A stretch of DNA of 64,000 nt. It comes from Centroberyx gerrardi. Lineage: Eukaryota; Chordata; Actinopteri; Beryciformes; Berycidae. The notes under the pieces were generated by a model, which saw only the letters and a program-made list of their open reading frames with translations, did not search any database and was not told the origin of the DNA. Every line of letters begins with the position of its first letter. Position 1 is the stretch's first letter. The stretch covers positions 6,034,501-6,098,500 of the forward strand of contig NC_136016.1 of NCBI RefSeq assembly GCF_048128805.1, given 5' to 3'. Both the position numbers and the translations under genes were made by a program. Shown here one piece after another: positions 9,668-50,810 of the stretch.

Positions 9668-10265
9668 GTGAAAATGTAATAGACTGGGACAACATAATGG
9701 AGACACTAAGAAGTAGTGTAGTAGAAGTAGTGAAGTCAAAAGACTCTGCAATTAGATTTTTAAACATTGCTTTGGTGCAGTTGTAGAAGTGGCAGGAATG
9801 CAGAGACGGACAACTTCTCTCGTTGACTACACCAACTCGTGTGTCATTTATTTTTAGCCCACAGAGCAAGACAATTTACTTCGCGCTCAAAAACACAACA
9901 TGACGTCGATCTGACGACTTTCTTAAAGGGACCGTGTCTCCTTAACCCTGAGAAGCACACAATATAACTGCGTGTGTTAAACATACCCAAACCACAGATT
10001 ATGGTGAATAATGTCTATAGAGTCCGCCACACAGTCACCTTAAAAGCATAATGATCTGGATCAGATGATTCTGTGTGACCATCTTGGGGACTGTATTTTT
10101 TTTTTTTTTACTTAAGTGAAAAATGCTGTTTCACATACATATTAAAAATAATCTTCCATAAATGTTCAAGCAGATTTGTATGGTTATTGAGAAATTGTCA
10201 TATATCATATACTATGAAATGCTGAACCTCTACCAGCACTGATACTGATTCCTATAAAGAGAGAG

Positions 10266-10373
10266 CCAATTAGTCATTAGAGCTGATCAGCAACAGCTGT
10301 GGCACCAGTAGGAAGTGCTTTTATAAACCTCTGCTGTGGTTCAGGTAGTTATTTTGTCTTGGTGACCAAAGCA
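10266..10373 (+). promoter_or_regulatory. TATA-type promoter of the sequon-repeat gene
   Basis: Upstream of the start codon lie CCAAT (10266-10270), an E-box CAGCTG (10294-10299) and TATAAA (10322-10327), the last about 47 nt before the ATG. This compact TATA promoter differs from the neighbouring housekeeping genes and suggests tissue- or stage-specific, high-level transcription. The E-box type fits many bHLH factors, including oocyte FIGLA, but binding cannot be read from sequence. Confidence 0.45.
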
Positions 10374-13300
10374 ATGGGATCTTTTTGGGCCTTGGTTCTC
10401 TGTGTGCTGAGTGTTTGGCTTGCCAAAGGTATGTCTCTATAATGCTATTTAAACCAGTATTTGTAAAATTGTAAATCAATTGAGGACAGTACAATTTCAC
10501 AATATTCTGAGCGTAGGAGCTCAGAATATTGAAGAACTAAGACTACTGTCATCATCAATATGGACAACCTGAAGCTGCAAGGCTGATTTCCTACAATCAG
10601 CCTTGCAGCTTCAGGTTGTCCATATTGATGATGGCAGTAGTCTTAGTTCTTGGAATTTCTAGTTCTGAACATGAGGGCATGCATTGGACCATCCTAGGCA
10701 AGAGAAATATTGAGGCTAAATTTGACTGGTTTTGCCCTGTATTTCTGTTATCAATACTGCATTAACCTGTGCTAACTGCAAGTGCACCATCTACAGCATC
10801 TTGTTCACCAGATGGTGACACACAGGAGGATGGTTTTAAGAAGAGACTGAGAGGTAAGCACATGTGCAATGGCAGCTATAACTTTTGGAGCTAATTTCAG
10901 ACTAACTCAATTTCCCTTGTACTGCAGAGATTTCACCCAATGAGATCTCGATAAAGAAAGCCCTTACACTTCTTCAGTCAATGGAGTCCATGTTTGATGA
11001 GCGACGTGCTGAAGACGGTAAGCAGGTTCTCTGAAAACCCACTAGCTAAAAGGCAATTTTGTGTAGCCTTGGCTTTTTAGCCTTTGATGTGGTAATCATG
11101 AGTGCTCAGTTCTCATTATACATTTATTATCTAATGTTGGTGTTTTCTTACTCAACAGTACACTTGGAAACCAATGAAGTGGAAGCTGAGGCATCATCTG
11201 TGCATTTCCGCCAGCCCATTGGAGCACGCCCTAACAAACTTGGACCCTTCCGTGGGGGTACCCAGAAGACTCCAATGGAAACCATCAGTGTAAAGGCCGC
11301 CATGACTGCAGCCGACAACATGACGGCAGCCATGACTGCAGCTGACAACATGACGGCGGCAGACAACATGACAGCAGCCATGACGGCGGCAGACAACGTG
11401 ACTGCAGCCGACAACGTGACGATGGCGGACAACATGACTGCAGCGGCCATTACTGCAGCCGACAACATGACGGTGGCCATGACAGCGGCAGACAACGTGA
11501 CTGCAGCCGACAACGTGACTGCGGCCGACAACATGACGATGGCGGACAACATGACTGCAGCGGCCATGACGGCGGCAGACAACGTGACGGCGGCGGACAA
11601 CGTGACGGCGGCGGACAACGTGACGGCGGCGGACAACGTGACGGCGGCGGACAACGTGACTGCGGCCGACAACATGACGATGGCGGACAACATGACTGCA
11701 GCGGCCATGACGGCGGCAGACAATGTGACTGCCATGACGGCGGCAGACAACATGACGGCGGCAGACAACGTGACTGCCATGACGGCGGCCGACAACATGA
11801 CGGCTGCAGACAACGTGACTGCCATGACGGCGGCAGACAACATGACGGCGGCAGACAACGTGACTGCCATGACGGCGGCCGACAACATGACGGCGGCAGA
11901 CAACGTGACTGCCATGACGGCGGCCGACAACATGACGGCGGCAGACAACGTGACTGCCATGACGGCGGCAGACAACATGACGGCGGCAGACAATGTGACT
12001 GCCATGACGGCGGCAGACAACATGACGGCGGCAGACAATGTGACTGCCATGACGGCGGCAGACAACATGACGGCGGCAGACAACGTGACTGCCATGACGG
12101 CGGCCGACAACATGACGGCGGCCGACAATGTGACTGCAGCTGACAACATGACTGCGGCCGACAACATGACGGCGGCAGACAACGTGACTGCCATGACGGC
12201 GGCAGACAACGTGACGGCGGCAGACAACGTGACTGCCATGACGGCAGCCGACAACATGACGGCGGCAGACAACGTGACTGCCATGACGGTGGCAGACAAC
12301 GTGACGGCGGCAGACAACGTGACTGCCATGACGGTGGCAGACAACGTGACAGTGGCAGACAACGTGACAGCGGCCATGACTGCAGCAGACAACGTGACGG
12401 CGGCCGACAACATGACGATGGCCGACAACATGACGATGGCGGACAACATGACTGCAGCGGCCATGACGGTGGCAGACAACGTGACGGCGGCCATGACTGC
12501 AGCAGACAACGTGACTGCAGCAGACAACGTGACGGTGGCCATGACGGCGGCAGACAACGTGACTGCAGCAGACAACGTGACAGTGGCCATGACGGCGGCA
12601 GACAACGTGACTGCCATGACGGCGGCCGACAACGTGACTGCCATGACAATGGCAGACAACGTGACAGCAGCAGACAACGTGACAGCGGCCATGACTGCAG
12701 CTGACAACGTGACGGCGGCAGACAACGTGACGGCGGCCATGACTGCAGCTGACAACGTGACGGCGGCAGACAACGTGACGGCGGCAGACAACGTGACGGT
12801 GGCAGACAACGTGACAGTGGCCATGACGGCGGCAGACAACGTGACGGCGGCAGACAACGTGACGGCGGCCATGACTGCAGCAGACAACGTGACGGTGGCA
12901 GACAACGTGACGGTGGCAGACAACGTGACAGCGGCCATGACGGCGGCAGACAACGTGACGGCGGCAGACAACGTGACGGCGGCAGACAACGTGACAGCGG
13001 CCATGACTGCAGCAGACAACGTGACGATGGCGGACAACATGACGGCGGCAGACAACGTGACAGCGGCCATGACTGCAGCCGACAACGTGACGGCGGCCAT
13101 GACTGCAGCCGACAACGTGACGGCGGCAGACAACGTGACGGCGGCCATGACTGCAGCCGACAACGTGACGGCGGCAGACAACGTGACGGCGGCCATGACT
13201 GCAGCCGACAACGTGACGGCGGCCATGACTGCAGCCGACAACGTGACAGCGGCCATGACTGCAGCAGACAACGTGACGATGGCGGACAACATGACGGCGG

Positions 13301-13572
13301 CAGACAACGTGACAGCGGCCATGACTGCAGCAGACAACGTGACGATGGCGGACAACATGACGGCGGCAGACAACGTGACAGCGAACGAGCTGCATCCAGA
13401 AATCCATGGGGGAACTAATTCTGAAACTACCAAGAGTGCACCTAAAGGCAGCAATCCCAGCATCCAACATGTTCTTCTAGACATGATCACTACCACCACT
13501 GCTGCTCTCAGAACCCCAGAGCTGACCACTGACCTCAATGTGCCCACCTCAGTGTCTCCCTCTATCACATAG
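10374..13572 (+). CDS. Secreted protein with about 90 tandem N-glycosylation sequons (hyosophorin-like candidate)
   Basis: Exons 10374-10428, 10797-10853, 10928-11017 and 11159-13572 total 2616 nt, 871 residues, all GT-AG and in frame. Residues 1-19 form a signal peptide (MGSFWALVLCVLSVWLAKA). A leader follows with a basic site FKKRLR and a short amphipathic helix (IKKALTLLQSMESMF). Residues about 115-809 are tandem TAADN[V/M] units with interspersed AAMT spacers. Counting the translation gives about 91 D-N-[V/M]-T sequons, and every Asn of the array lies in one. The array has no Cys, aromatic or basic residue. A 62-residue Thr/Pro/Ser-rich tail ends the protein. Family not recognised. Best guess, by layout only: a cortical-alveolus L-hyosophorin-type precursor releasing short glycopeptides; alternatives are a mucin-like coat or an antifreeze-like glycoprotein. 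Frames on the other strand are also open, only because the repeat unit is a multiple of three. Confidence 0.8.
10501..10651. repeat. Paired hairpins in intron 1 of the sequon-repeat gene
   Basis: A short perfect hairpin (10501-10530, 12-nt arms AATATTCTGAGC, 6-nt loop) abuts a long one. The long arms 10532-10588 and 10595-10651 are 57 nt each with a single mismatch and a 6-nt loop (TCCTAC). Such near-perfection means a young fold-back element or a hairpin kept by selection. Confidence 0.9.
11299..13383 (+). repeat. Coding minisatellite of 18-nt and 12-nt units
   Basis: The array is built from 18-nt units (GCNGCNGACAAC[G/A]TGACN) and 12-nt AAMT spacer units. Between about 11725 and 12130 a 45-nt higher-order unit (AMTAADNMTAADNVT) repeats nine times almost without change, a sign of recent unequal exchange. 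Copy number is likely to differ between alleles and may be mis-assembled from short reads. Confidence 0.95.
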
Positions 13573-13670: not shown

Positions 13671-13676
13671 ATTAAA
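13671..13676 (+). terminator. Poly(A) signal of the sequon-repeat gene
   Basis: ATTAAA, the commonest variant hexamer, lies 99 nt after the stop codon, giving a short 3' UTR. Confidence 0.6.
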
Positions 13677-14434
13677 ATTTTAACTTGTATTTGTGTTGTC
13701 ATTTCTCTATCCACAATCCCCAGATTAGCTTTGCTTTTGTTGGGTCAATTTGACAAGCCACACTACCGACACTACAGCTTCTCAATTTCTGACAGCTTTA
13801 CTCCGTAGGACCAAGCCTGACAGAACTATATTTTAGGACTTCTGTTCTGTTCCTACTGTAATTTCTAGCAGTTAATGCAGCAATGCAAACCTTAATGCGC
13901 TAAGTATTGGTATACAGTGGCTTCAAAGTATTGAGACCCCTTTTCTCTTTGTTATAGACTTGACAAAGTTAAAACCTAATTAGAATTTCTTTTTTTTTTC
14001 TCAAATGTATTAAGCTGATATCTCATTTACATAAGTATCAGAGCCTATTACACTCTAAATTGAGCAAAGATCTACTTTTACTGTCCCCTTAGGGAAATTT
14101 GTCTTGGATGCTGTACAGACACAACATGGCATCGCAACAAAACAAAATGTGTGGCATACCTTAATTTTATAAAATGCATCCTTTAGTCATCCTTGATGTC
14201 TCTAGAACTTCATTATAGTCCACCTGTGGTAAATTCAATTGACTGGACATGATTTAGGTGTTGGTGCAAAAACCAAGCCATAAAGTCCAACGAATTCGCT
14301 GTAGACCTAAAATTTGTGTCAAGGCATAGATCTGGGGAAGGTATAAAGCCACTCTTGAGGAAAAGACATTAAGTTTGCCAAATGGCACTTAAGGGACTCG
14401 GAGCATGAGGAAAAGATTCTCTGGTCTGATGAGA

Positions 14435-14925
14435 CAAGCACAGCTCATGTACAGACCCACGGCATGTGTTCAATTCACTTCAGCTCAATTCAATGCACTG
14501 AAGCGGTTAAACAATTCCACTTAATTACAAAAGGTAAATACGTTACCGTTAAAGATTTACAAAGACGTTATCAAGTTACTGTTTACAATTCCTGTTACTA
14601 ACACAGACGAGTTTGGAGCAAATTGTGGAATGTTAAGTTTCACTTTAGTTTTCACACGGGGAGGCTCTGTTTGATTCGAGTACATTCCTGCTGGTCTGCG
14701 CATCACCAAATGACAAACGTGACATGATGTGCACATCAGGCGCATTAGAGATCGATTTAGATAAATTTCTAAACATTGACCAACTTTTGATTTTGTGCCT
14801 CTGTATGGGAAACACTGCATCTCACAGTCATAGACGCCCTGTAGAGGCCATCTCACGAAGCAACAGATGACCGACTGCCTGACCTGAATTTGCCTCGTGA
14901 TGCCCTTGGCTGTGCTGTGGGAAAA
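14435..14925. mobile_element. Insertion of about 490 bp inside the Tc1 element
   Basis: The Tc1 transposase sequence breaks at GTCTGATGAGACA and resumes at TTCTTTGGACTGAATAGCAA. The sequence between is foreign to Tc1. A minus-strand frame of 144 codons crosses it but has no recognised domain. Exact ends and family are unclear. Confidence 0.5.
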
Positions 14926-15462
14926 ATGTAATTCTTTGGACTGAATAGCAAGCGCTATGTCTGGCGAAAACCAAGTACTACCGCTCATCACCTAATAACA
15001 TCCCTACGGTGAAGCATGGTGGTGGCAGCATCATGCTTCTGGAAAATGGGAATGCTTCTCAGGACTGAGGGAACGATGAACAGAGCCAAATACAGAGAGG
15101 TCCTTGAAGAAAACCTGCTCCAGAGCGCACACGACCTCAGACCGGTGCGAAGATTCACCTTTCAGCTCTTGAAGCACACAGCCAAGGCACCACTTGAGAG
15201 GCTTCGGGACAAGTCTCTGAACGTCCTTGAGTGGTCCAGTCAAAGCCTGGACTTGAACCCCATTGAAAATCTGAAGAGAGACCTGAAGATCTCAGTTCAC
15301 CAACACTCCCCATCCAATTTGACAGAGCTTGAGAGGATCTGCAAGGAATAATGAGAGAAACTGCCCAAATCCACGTGTGCAAGAGGCATACCCAAGAAGA
15401 CTCAAAGCTGCCATCCCTGCCAAAGGCGCTTCTACAAAGTACCGAAAAAAAAGTCTGAATAC

Positions 15463-32416: not shown

Positions 32417-35209
32417 TTACAGAATGCCCCTGAAGTCAAGGCTGTCTGCAGATCTGCTGGAGTAGGGCAGCTGTTGACCTCTATGCTGCGGGAAGACATG
32501 CTGATGCCTGCAAGGCCTGGATCTTGCTATGGCTCTTGCGGGTCTGTAGTGCTTTTTGAACTGCAGGAACACAGAGAAAACACGTTTAGTACAAATCCCT
32601 TGACATCTACTAAAAGCGTTAAAGCCTTGACCTAATTAAGAAAGCGGATCCATCGCTTAATCAGTGAGTTATTTTAGCGTAGTACTCACTCTTGTGCATC
32701 TCAATATCACTGCTCCAGTGAAGAGGAACAACATGACAATGAACGCCGTCACGCTCAGGACAATGAAGATGAGATCCATAGCATGGCCGTCACATTGTTC
32801 CTGAGGATCCCTCTCTGTGAGGCAAAGGGACAGAAGGGGGTGTCAGTTGAATATTTGATTTACTTGCTTGTAGGGATGGGACGATGTACTGAAATTCATT
32901 ATATCACGATACAAAACTGTGACAATACGTATTGTGGGGCAGAAAAATTTATCGTGATAAGCATATCGTCCCATCCCTACTTGCTTGAAATGTAAATTAA
33001 TCATGTTCCAAAGGGTTACGTAACTATTTAACCTTCATCTTCTCTAAAACTCAAGTGACTGATTCTTCTCACCTCTGACAATTACCACGGTGCCATTGCT
33101 CTCAAGGCTTTCTGGCGTCAACGTGTGCGTATTGAAGTAACTCCACTTGCAGTAGTACACGTCCGTGTCCTCCAGCCCCAAGAGAGACAGCCGCAGGGTG
33201 AACCCGCAGCCCGGCCCGGTCCCTGGGTCTGGAACCACGTCGACTCGGCCTGTGAAGCCCGAGTGGACGGTCCTCTTGGTGACTCGGCCCTCCGCCAAGG
33301 ACACGTACACGACGCTTCTGTCGCCTTGGAAATAGCCCAGCAGGTAGAGCCCCATCGGGTTGGACAGCGATGTGGAGCACAGGATCTCAGCGGACGAGTT
33401 GACTCTCATCAGGGAGATGGCAGGCGGGTTTTGAGAAACTGTCAGGGAGAGATGGATCGTTACTGACGGGGGCGGTCTTACCATTAGGCAAAGGTAGGTG
33501 AATGCCTTAGGCCCCATAAAAGACAAGAATAGAGCCAATATAACCGTGTTTCTCATCAATTTAAAAGAAATTCCCTTATTGAAAAGCACCCCAATTGTTT
33601 CAATCTTGAGTCATGGCCACCATGTTGCCGCTTGCAATATTACCTATTATTAACTACCTATTACCACTGCTTCCAAGCTCAGCCCCAACTTAAGGTAATG
33701 TATAGAAAGGATGGATTGAAAACAGTGAATGTTGGGACTCAGGGGGCCCCATATTTGCCTTTGCCCAGGGCCCCCAAATCACTAAGTCCGCCCCTGCACC
33801 TGAGGCAGTCATGAAATGCAGAGAAGACATAAGCATTTCCAGGCCATGTCTTCTGGAGAAACATGAATAATATCTAATAAAATGATAAAACTCAGCTTCC
33901 TCCATCCCTCTGCCTCCTACCAAAAAAACTATCCTCATGAACTGGAAAACTAGACACAAACTAAACAGAACACAATGGTTAAACCTTCTTACAGAACATA
34001 TTTCGATGGAAAAGCTTACAGCCTCTCTCCAAGATCAAACCCCATGCTTTGAAGCAACCTGGAACCCCTTTCATTACGCACTAAAGCTACCAATGTTGAA
34101 TTTTCCCCTCACTTGCCTCTACTGACACAAATAGGATCTACAGTAATTTATAATGCTGTTAGAGAGGCGGCTCTCTCTCTAACTGAGGTGTCTGTCACCT
34201 TGCGTGCAGGAGGCCTCCGAGTGACCTGTGAACCAATGCCCCTCACACATGAGGAACGCACACACACACACACACACACACACTCTCTCTCTCTTTCTCA
34301 CTACTGCAAACCACTAGACTCTCAGAACCTAATCTGTTATTGTTATTGCTATTTTTATCATTATTCTATGTAATAACAGCTGCTTCTTTTTTTTTATTCT
34401 CTCCCCTTTTAATTTTCACTTTGCATCTGTTTGTCTGTGTGTTCTTTTTTTTTTTCCTTCCTTCCTTTCACCTTCTTCCTCTCCTTTGTTATTGCTTATT
34501 CAGCGAGGAGGGAGGGCAGGGACTTCACCACTGTCTAATTATAGCTATATTCATCTATATTCACAATAAAGTATATATATATATATATATATATATGACA
34601 CTACCAGTCAAAAGTTTGGACACACCTGATTGAATGTACTATGTTTTTCATTATCTTAAAGCCAACAGTGGAGTTGATGCCTATGTATGTATTTCTTTCC
34701 AAATACATTCCTTTGCCTTTCCATCAAGGCAAAGGGCGGCTACTTTAAATAATCTAAAAATATAAGATAGTTTTGATTTAACACTTTTTTGTTCACTGCA
34801 TAACTCCATTTGTGTTAATTCACAGTTTTGATGTCTTTACTATTATTTTAAAATGTGGAAAATAGTAAAAAATAAAGAAAAATGTGGTGTGTCAAAACTT
34901 TTGACTGGTAGTGTATATATATATAACAAAAAGACAAAAAAAACCAACAACCTCAACTTCCTGCAGGTGCTGTAGGGTAATCGCATGAAAAGAGCTAAGA
35001 GATGCTCTCAGGGCAAAAACAAACTGAGGCTGCAAACAGGAAAAAGTGACTCAGACCTGTTGCTGAAGACAGCTTCCCTTCATCCCTTCCATTAACCCAA
35101 GACAAATCCATCCCTGCTGTCTCACACACTCACCTGTCCAGGGGTCGAGCAGCGCCCCAGCAGGCATGCACAGTAATCCCAACAGACAGCTCCACCAGTG
35201 ACCTCTCAT
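32417..35209 (-). CDS. CD7-like single-V-domain immunoglobulin membrane protein
   Basis: Four exons: 35209-35134, 33438-33073, 32814-32690, 32560-32417; 711 nt, 236 residues (human CD7 is 240). Exon 1 encodes a signal peptide (MRGHWWSCLLGLLCMPAGAL). Exon 2 encodes one Ig V-type domain with the Cys pair in AEILCSTS and DVYYCKW and the usual L..ED.D.YYC end. Exon 3 gives a membrane span (LIFIVLSVTAFIVMLFLFTG) and exon 4 a basic cytoplasmic tail ending YSSRSADSLDFRGIL; the tail has no clear ITAM or ITIM. CD7 is a T/NK-cell surface receptor. The call rests on size, one-domain layout and location next to NARF, as CD7 lies near NARF in human; sequence identity is low, so another receptor of the same shape is possible. 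Its introns hold two MITEs. Confidence 0.65.
32871..32979. mobile_element. 109-bp hAT-type MITE with perfect target duplication
   Basis: Ends TAGGGATGGGACGAT and ATCGTCCCATCCCTA are perfect inverted copies. The 8-bp duplication CTTGCTTG flanks both sides (32863-32870 and 32980-32987). Intact flanks imply a fairly recent insertion into the CD7-like intron. Confidence 0.9.
33464..33797. mobile_element. GC-ended MITE in CD7-like intron 1
   Basis: The ends GGGGCGGTCTTACCATTAGG and its counterpart CTAAGTCCGCCCC are loosely inverted, with GGCCCC-rich subterminal motifs on both sides (near 33510 and 33745). No coding capacity. It sits next to the Ig exon and makes the open frame look longer than the exon. 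Confidence 0.6.
34256..34597. repeat. CA, CT and AT microsatellites
   Basis: (CA)n with a CT extension at about 34256-34302 and (AT)n at 34572-34597, separated by T-rich sequence, in the first intron of the CD7-like gene. Confidence 0.85.
34599..34913. mobile_element. Tc1-type MITE (about 315 bp)
   Basis: Left end CACTACCAGTCAAAAGTTTG and right end AAACTTTTGACTGGTAGTG are inverted repeats flanked by an alternating TA tract, as expected for TA-targeting Tc1 elements. AT-rich interior without transposase. Confidence 0.85.
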
Positions 35210-36035: not shown

Positions 36036-36954
36036 TCACACATGCGTTAGGCGTTTTGAAGCAGCTTCGCTCTCCGGGTCGGCGTCAGCATTGTTGGGGT
36101 GTCGTTGCGTCATTTTGTTCCAGACATGGCTGACCATTCTCTTGCCTCTCTGAGTTTTAGCCAGGTATACCACAATACCCACAACAGCGAGGGTGACAAC
36201 AATGCCAACCAGGGCAGCATACACGTTAGTTGGCTCAGGGTCAATGGATTTCTCTGACAAGATAAAGAATTTCTCTTATGAACCCACATTAAACCCACAT
36301 TGTGAGTCTGAACAACACTTCCAGGACTCAAAATGACAGTATATAGGCACGGAGAATAATCATGCACACATACAAATAATCACATAAACATGATAAGACA
36401 TTTGCAAAAAAGCTTTAAGACACTCACCATGAATGTTAACTCCTACTGTGGCAGTAGAAGATTCAGTACCACAGTCTGTACTCATTGAAATGTAGTAAAT
36501 TCCCTTCATGTCTTTCTTGACACTTGGGATGTTGAGATACAGCACATGTGTAATGTTGTCCACTCCACAGGTGTAGGGTTTGTCCTGTGCGTCTTTTTGC
36601 GTGTTTTCATTCATCTTGTTGCTGCAAATTACGTTGCCACTTTTGTCACTGTCTTTACTCCAGATATACTGTAGAACTTCACATCCACTGTCAAAATTCG
36701 AGAAATTCATGGCACAGCGTAGCATCATGTCATCTCCAACTTTGGCCTCTACTGTACTGTTGCACTTCAGCGTCACTCCTGGATGATAAACAGTGGCATT
36801 AATTGATATAATGACTTGTTTTCACTTCATAATGTATTTGCTGTAGTATATTTATTCCTGTAGAAGCGTCATGATTAACTGTTCGGTTACCTTGATCTAC
36901 TGAGGCACTGCCTGGCAAAACGGCAGCCATAAAGAGCAAACACAGCTGGTGCAT
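36036..36954 (-). CDS. Unrecognised single-Ig-domain type I membrane protein
   Basis: Three coding exons: 36954-36891, 36778-36428, 36253-36036; 633 nt, 210 residues. Residues 1-18 are a signal peptide (MHQLCLLFMAAVLPGSAS). The ectodomain has an Ig-like pattern (VGDDMMLRCAMNF, YIWSKD, KKDMKGIYYISM) with several N-glycosylation sites (NST, NFS, NIT). The usual C at the YxC position is replaced: the strand reads YYISMSTDCG, with Cys six residues after the second Tyr, plus extra cysteines. The membrane span is YAALVGIVVTLAVVGIVVYL and the tail is short and basic. An acceptor directly before the ATG implies a 5' UTR exon, perhaps ending near 39207 (donor ACT|GTAAGT). It lies 2 kb upstream of the CD7-like gene on the same strand. 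SECTM1 is CD7's neighbour in human and has the same layout, but I cannot show homology. Confidence 0.6.
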
Positions 36955-48376: not shown

Positions 48377-50810
48377 ATGATGTCTAGCCACACAGAGGAG
48401 CTGGATAAACCTGACCAGAGTTTTTCTGAAGGAGACTCCTCTTGTCTTAGTGAAGACTCGAGTGACGATGAACAAGATGGTGAGCGGTACGTTACTTTAC
48501 AGCTTTATATTTTATTCACTAAATTTCGCACTTCAGTTGAGCTATCATCTGATTTATTACGCGAAGCTTCTAAGGATGATTCTGTACTATTCTGGTCTAA
48601 CAAATAGGTGTGTAGATTGTGAATTATTGCTTAGCGGTTGGAATGAAGCTTTCTAAAATCCTTGAACCCTTTTCTGTTACACGAGCAAAACACATTGTGT
48701 GAAAATATTTGCAATACAGTATAAAATCTCACCTTTGTGTGGCCTATCCCAGTTGTTTTCATATGCATGTTTAAACATGGCCACTACTCTTCTTCTACGC
48801 CTCTTCCCTTCATTATATATATTCTCATTTTAATTGGTCAATTAAGTATTTATTCAACAATGGTAACATTTCTTTTTTATCTCTCTATTCCCCATCAACA
48901 ACCCTGTGTTTCTTAGGTGTCCTTTGCACTCTCGGTCACCCTCTCCTCTGTCATCAGAGAACCAGGAACCTCCTCCATGGCCCCAGCCCTCTCCTGCCTC
49001 TACTCCTGTGAAGAAGCGACGCAGGCAGGCTGCTGTACCTCAGTGCTCCCCTCCACCAAGAGGGGGAACAAGCACACCCGAGCGAGGAGAAAGGTGGATG
49101 GATGACAGCGAGCCGGACACTCGGCCATCAGTCCACCCGTTCGCTCCGGCCAGAACACCTGGGCCACAGCTGGATTTTGCCAAGGAGTATTCTCCCTTGG
49201 AGCTATTCCAGTTGACATTCTCTCAGAGTGTGACGCAGACGCTTTGCATCAACACCAATAAGAAGGCTCAACAGAGACTAGACCAGGGAAAGAAATTTCC
49301 ATGGGACCCGCTGGAGCCACATGAGCTGTACCGGTTCTTTGGGTTGCTTATTAGCATGGGCCTTGTGAGGTGTCCAGAGACTCAGGACTACTGGAGCCGT
49401 GTGAGGTGTTACAACTTTCCTTTCCCTCGCACAGTCTTAAGCAGAACCCGGTTCGAGGCCATCTCCTGGGCTCTGCACATCAGTGACCCTGATGCGGACA
49501 GGCAGAACGATGCACTGAAGGGCACAGAGGGGTACGACCGCCTTTTCCGCTTGCGTCCGCTCCTTGATGACGTAGTGACCGCATGCAGGGCGTTTTACCA
49601 GCCGCGGCGGCAACTGTCTATCGATGAGCGGATGGTAGCCACCAAGGCTCGGATTGGATTGAAACGGTACATGAAGGCAAAACCTACAAAATGGGGCTTC
49701 AAACTGTTTGTTCTGTCCGATTCGTCAAATGGCTACACATGTGACTTCAATATTTGCACAGGGAAACAGAAGTCATCAACTGGAATCATCAACGATGCTG
49801 TCCTGAAACTCCTGACTCCGTCCCTTGGAACAGGGTACCAGGTATACGTTGACAACTGGTACACCAGCACTGCTCTCTTCCAGGATCTGCATGACATGCG
49901 GTTTGAAGCATGCGGGACCCACAGGGAGAAGAGGAAAGGCTATCCCGTTACCAAGGTGAACGACATGCCCAGGAATGCCGAGAAGGGTACAATGAAGTGG
50001 ATACGGGAGGGTCAGATGCTGTATCTAAAATGGATGGACTCAAGGGAGGTCAAGATGTGCTCCACATTCCACACTGCATTCCAGGGGGACACCATTGTGA
50101 GAAACATGCGAAACACTGATGGCACTTGGAGCCCCCGTCATGTTCCAGTTCCCACTGCAGTGAAGGACTACAACAAGTTAATGGGGGGTGTGGACTTGTC
50201 AGACGCCCTGCTGAAGTACTACAGCATCAGGCGGAAGACCGTCAAGTGGTACAAGGCCCTGCTGCAACACTTTATTGATATTGCGGTGGTAAACGGCTTC
50301 CTGCTGCAGAAGGAGCTCGCAGCACAGAAGCAGCAGAGACCGCTCAGTCACAAGCGCTTCCGAGAGTTGTTAGCCGAACAGCTGGTTGACTTTCAACCTG
50401 GAAGGACGTCCGCTGCTGCATTTGGTCCTGCTGTGCCTGCTGCTGCCCGCGTGTCGCCTGCAGCTCCCTCTGCTCCTCCTGCCTCTGTCTCTGGGTCTCG
50501 AGCACCAGTCGCTGCCCCTCCTGCTGCTGCTTCTGGTGCTTCCGCCGCAAGCTCCGGTCCTCCCGCCGCTGCAGCTGGTGCTGTGGGTCCGAGTGCTGGA
50601 TTCGGTTGCTTCCCAGTCCCCATCAACGACCCTAGCAAAATAGCTCGCTCCCAGAAGGCGACAGCAAACAGGCGGCGGTGTGTTCATTGCACTGCTCAGC
50701 GGGAGCATAATCTAACACCTTGGAAATGCTCAAAGTGTGATGTATCGCTCTGTCTGATCATGGACCGGAACTGCTTTCTAGAATGGCACAAAGACAAGGC
50801 ACAGAAGTAG
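48377..50810 (+). CDS. piggyBac transposase (DDE_Tnp_1_7), apparently intact
   Basis: Two exons, 48377-48486 and 48917-50810 (intron GTACGT...TTAG), 667 residues. The long frame lacks an ATG at its left edge; splicing supplies it and joins an acidic leader (SSCLSEDSSDDEQDGER) to RSPSPLSSENQEPPP. The transposase fold has the three catalytic aspartates in QLSIDERM (about residue 272), YVDNWYTS (about 348) and KLMGGVDLSD (about 462), matching piggyBac spacing. An Ala/Pro-rich stretch (about 525-600) precedes a C-terminal Cys-rich finger (CVHC...CSKC....C...CFLEWH). No stop or frameshift interrupts it. It could be a recently active copy or a domesticated gene; the inverted repeats favour the former. 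Confidence 0.9.

Follow-up and report, generated by a model that had tools for sequence, protein, structure and literature searches.

The 64 kb window analyzed here (64,000 nucleotides of Centroberyx gerrardi DNA) contains on its plus strand, at positions 10374-13572, a predicted gene whose four exons, joined at GT-AG sites, encode a protein of 871 codons plus a stop. The coding part of exon 1 (10374-10428) carries the start codon and signal peptide, exon 2 (10797-10853) an acidic and basic leader with the motif KKRLR, exon 3 (10928-11017) a further stretch of leader that by eye is likely helical (ISIKKALTLLQSMESMFDERR), and exon 4 (11159-13572) the leader end, an entire array of N-glycosylation sequons, the tail, and the stop codon. 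The exons are 55, 57, 90, and 2414 bases long, so that all three introns are in phase 1. Upstream on the plus strand lies MRPL38 (E 4.4e-21 to the solved mL38), and downstream on the minus strand lies FDXR (E 2.2e-20 and 1.2e-7 to adrenodoxin reductase); TRIM coding pieces comprising RING, B-box, and coiled coil are also found upstream, on the minus strand. A sequence-only reading had proposed a four-exon gene with introns, a TATA box, and a poly(A) signal between these two neighbors, and both the predicted splicing and the matches to solved proteins agree with it.

Gene model and signals

Scored with simple matrices, all three donors are among the best 0.2-0.6% of the 3657 GT dinucleotides in the window, including that of exon 1 (AAG/GTATGT, top 0.4%), the strong donor of exon 2, and that of exon 3 (top 0.6%). 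The acceptors of introns 2 and 3 fall in the top 0.8% and 4.6%, respectively, of the window's 4127 AG dinucleotides. The acceptor of intron 1 is weak, with 26% of these AG scoring equally well; a branch-site-like TGCTAAC at 10770-10776 compensates for this in part. A TATA box (TATAAA, 10322-10327, plus strand) stands 52 bases upstream of the ATG, with another TATAAA at 10253, and a poly(A) signal (ATTAAA, 13671-13676, plus strand) followed by a GT-rich stretch lies about 100 bases past the stop. The strong donors fit a working gene, as do the TATA box and the poly(A) signal. An E-box at 10294-10299 (CAGCTG, strand not assigned) is a possible oocyte-factor site of the FIGLA type but a weak lead, as CAGCTG occurs 29 times in the 64 kb and one copy near a promoter is not rare.

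A relationship to the SCPP mineralization genes was considered and dropped, as SCPP introns are in phase 0 and those found here are in phase 1. Intron 1 also holds a large near-perfect inverted repeat at 10523-10660, with 66 nt arms that are 92% complementary across a 6 nt gap; as RNA (10500-10670) it folds at -127.6 kcal/mol (z -22). A blastn search of the window found no second copy of this repeat, and Rfam gave no match to it and 0 matches over the window as a whole.

The predicted protein and its sequon array

The predicted protein begins with a signal peptide at residues 1 to approximately 19, assigned by hydropathy rather than by a trained predictor, in which the hydrophobic core reaches an 11-residue mean of 2.76 and A-K-A precedes the likely cut. 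The N-terminal part through residue 113 is unique and contains acidic and basic stretches, and the protein ends in a Thr-rich tail of 62 residues (810-871; 13384-13569, plus strand) that carries no sequon. The signal peptide, the short leader with a basic site, and the short Thr-rich tail had all been named in the sequence-only reading and were recovered in the translation. Before the addition of sugars, residues 21-871 have a calculated mass of 84.9 kDa and a pI of 4.05. A PDB search returned no significant match (four matches, all at E 0.1 or worse), and a Pfam search of the protein trimmed of the greater part of its array gave an unrelated best match at E 0.091, below the cut-off, and no mucin domain at E 1 or better. 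The leader and tail, compared with the whole window, produced nothing but self-matches above noise (next best E 0.10), and a literature search on the repeat strings returned unrelated titles among the matches listed.

Between leader and tail, residues 114-809 (11296-13383, plus strand) form an array of 131 Thr-ended units built from only seven kinds of residue (A232, T131, D91, N91, M75, V75, and I1), with no Lys, Arg, Ser, or Pro. Each of the 91 array Asn residues lies in a D-N-[V/M]-T sequon (64 DNVT and 27 DNMT) and each of the 91 Asp residues directly precedes an Asn, while none of the seven Asn outside the array is in a sequon. Shuffling the array residues 2000 times gave a mean of 17.1 sequons and a maximum of 29, versus the 91 observed. 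When the array is cut after each Thr, ten unit types are obtained, the commonest being AADNVT (56/131); 91 units contain a sequon and 40 are spacers lacking Asp-Asn (AAMT 17, AMT 15, VAMT 4, AAAMT 3, and AAAIT 1). The earlier estimate of about 695 residues of TAADN[V/M] units with about 91 sequons was right in its sequon count, but the array is 696 residues long and 40 of its 131 units have no sequon, indicating that not all units have been kept glycosylatable. No two spacers are adjacent, an arrangement with a probability of 2.5e-8 under random placement, although this value overstates the case because the array has grown by block duplication. Since spacers never neighbor one another, the sequons are spaced at 6 (n = 51), 10 (n = 20), 9 (n = 15), or 11 (n = 4) residues, and no gap exceeds 11. 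If a unit and its spacer are counted as a single repeat, each repeat carries a sequon. The 40 spacers, of which 39 have Met and one has Ile, look like AADNMT units that may have lost the six bases GACAAC.

Resemblance to egg glycopolymers

The sequence-only reading had suggested a hyosophorin-type gene or a new sequon-polymer protein, and this is supported in part. These predicted features are good support for a gene that encodes a secreted sequon polymer, and we assign a probability of roughly 0.5 to its being a functional gene whose N-glycopolymer product works like fish L-hyosophorin in eggs. The predicted anatomy, a secretion signal, crowded sequons, and an acidic chain with nothing else, would suit such work. 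Membership would turn on egg location, cutting, and homology, and the protein is described here as one that may work like a hyosophorin and not as a member of that group. PMC3528131 describes hyosophorins as cortical-alveolus polyproteins of tandem repeats, 80-90% carbohydrate, with the tandem repetition of one identical short peptide as a criterion; PMC12753239 puts the carbohydrate at over 90% and reports that hyosophorins are cleaved during the cortical reaction and afterwards serve as a source of free N-glycans. In the present protein the secretory signal is represented by the hydrophobic N-terminus seen by hydropathy, the units are tandem but not identical, and sugar would make up 49-87% of the mass with assumed glycan masses and full occupancy.

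Among the closest known systems, the L-hyosophorins of medaka and flounder and the cod egg glycopeptide consist of short units in tandem, each with a single Asn that carries an N-glycan, the medaka unit being reported as a nonapeptide with a large N-glycan and with Asn at position 5. In contrast, the present unit is mostly six residues long and degenerate, and the chain combines its 91 sequons with sequon-free spacers. The likeness to the carp, medaka, and flounder hyosophorins is one of published descriptions rather than of repeat or peptide sequences; carp hyosophorin (Tsao et al. 1999) is possibly the nearest cloned relative. Trout polysialoglycoprotein (apo-PSGP), called the first hyosophorin, is likewise a tandem-repeat cortical-alveolus polyprotein, but its 13-residue unit is reported to bear three O-linked polysialyl glycans (PMC3528131), whereas the units described here are N-sequons.

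Were the protein to work in this way, the chain would enter the ER, where most of the 91 Asn would receive N-glycans, and the product, mostly sugar by mass, would be stored in the cortical alveoli of the oocyte. On its release to the perivitelline space at fertilization it would be cleaved into small glycopeptides, which would raise the osmotic pressure and hydrate that space, and free glycans may later come off through the action of acid PNGase. As the array lacks Lys and Arg, cutting within it would need a protease that does not require basic residues. The papers examined did not give the genes that encode such egg glycopolymers in most fish, and the acid PNGase for which these polymers are the presumed substrates has been identified only recently (PMC12753239). 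A true egg glycopolymer gene at this locus would provide a locus, a conserved neighborhood, and testable peptides. Whatever the tissue, 91 sequons at a spacing of 6-11 residues constitute an extreme natural substrate that bears on how oligosaccharyltransferase handles crowded sites.

A secreted N-glycopolymer of another tissue, such as skin, gut or gill mucus, seminal or ovarian fluid, or the egg coat, with a mucin-like use and no relation to cortical alveoli, is the strongest competing reading, and we consider it possible at something over one chance in four. No sequence feature is unique to oocytes, the sole promoter hint being the one weak E-box, and the 131 Thr among the 696 array residues could bear O-glycans as well. 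A mucin-like nature is less easily reconciled with the composition, as typical mucin repeats contain Ser and Pro in addition to Thr and the array has neither, and no cysteine-rich mucin domain or Pfam match was detected in the protein with most of its array omitted.

Array evolution and genomic setting

The array shows recent internal duplication: its 40 blocks comprise 32 that are distinct in DNA, one 15-residue block occurs nine times, and exact 45-base repeats occur up to five times. Its GC content is 0.62-0.63 versus 0.35-0.45 in windows clear of the array, and CpG is not depleted (observed/expected 1.16 versus 0.50 for the window), which fits an array that is young or unmethylated in the germ line. 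Such properties would also be expected of a coding minisatellite that is specific to one lineage, lies within a minor secreted protein, and was expanded by slippage and unequal crossing-over, its sequons being by-products of little function. We regard this as unlikely, as substitution removes no sequon on the shortest tree of units, variation is mostly synonymous, spacers are never adjacent, and the unit lengths of 9, 12, 15, and 18 bases are all multiples of three that do not break the frame; every one of these points is nonetheless weakened by the common ancestry of the copies.

Variation among the 91 hexads falls mostly at third codon positions, with a pN/pS of 0.19 (0.135-0.243 in 100 bootstrap replicates) compared to 0.86, 0.96, 1.21, and 2.83 in other frames. 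The antisense frame that has its wobble positions in common with the sense frame is nearly as low at 0.256; this antisense reading, open over the array, was rejected because the sense strand is favored by the promoter and splice sites and by the signal peptide. A minimum spanning tree of the 28 distinct units contains 28 changes, 21 synonymous and seven nonsynonymous, none of which destroys a sequon; approximately 23% of independent neutral changes would do so, giving a chance of about 6e-4 for 0/28. The units in this tree were chosen by a pattern that includes the sequon, and no unit was missed by it, as every Asp in the array is followed by Asn and none of its residues falls outside the seven listed above. 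Under concerted evolution the copies are not independent, so these constraint statistics are support rather than proof and their probabilities are overstated. For a hyosophorin-like polymer, unequal recombination would lengthen the array and homogenize it, with selection maintaining the sequons and allowing no gap above 11 residues.

It is improbable that the stretch is not an expressed gene but open repetitive DNA with chance splice sites; several array frames are open on both strands and the intron 1 acceptor is weak, but one and the same frame is consistent with the signal peptide, the three strong donors, the TATA box, the poly(A) signal, and the open tail. A Thr-Ala-Ala polymer like the antifreeze glycoproteins, which are Ala/Thr-rich tandem glycopolymers with O-glycosylated Thr in Thr-Ala-Ala and genes of a similar tandem polyprotein layout, is very improbable, for although most units here contain Thr-Ala-Ala, each TAA is broken up by D-N-[V/M] or M, and to our knowledge antifreeze glycoproteins contain no such N-sequon repeat.

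We tentatively suggest, at rather less than even odds, a sequon-polymer gene that evolved independently of the known hyosophorins, without homology to them, and was inserted between MRPL38 and FDXR, with selection acting on sequon spacing (≤11 residues) rather than on the identity of the units, such that the glycan brush would amount to a spacing rule. WBP2, TRIM65, MRPL38, and fdxr are reported as a co-linear block across vertebrates, with no intervening gene named for MRPL38 and fdxr (PMC11758646); as this statement is a list, a gene between the two is still compatible with it. Elsewhere in the window, immunoglobulin-like exons are found on the minus strand at 33047-33610 and 36360-36821 (V-set E 0.042 and 0.00045, below the curated cut-off), and the segment at 13915-15350 on the plus strand appears by eye to be a decayed Tc1-type transposon, of which the frame at 15013-15348 has no Pfam match. 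A long open frame at 48867-50807 on the plus strand encodes a DDE_Tnp_1_7 transposase (E 1.1e-77), presumably of the piggyBac type.
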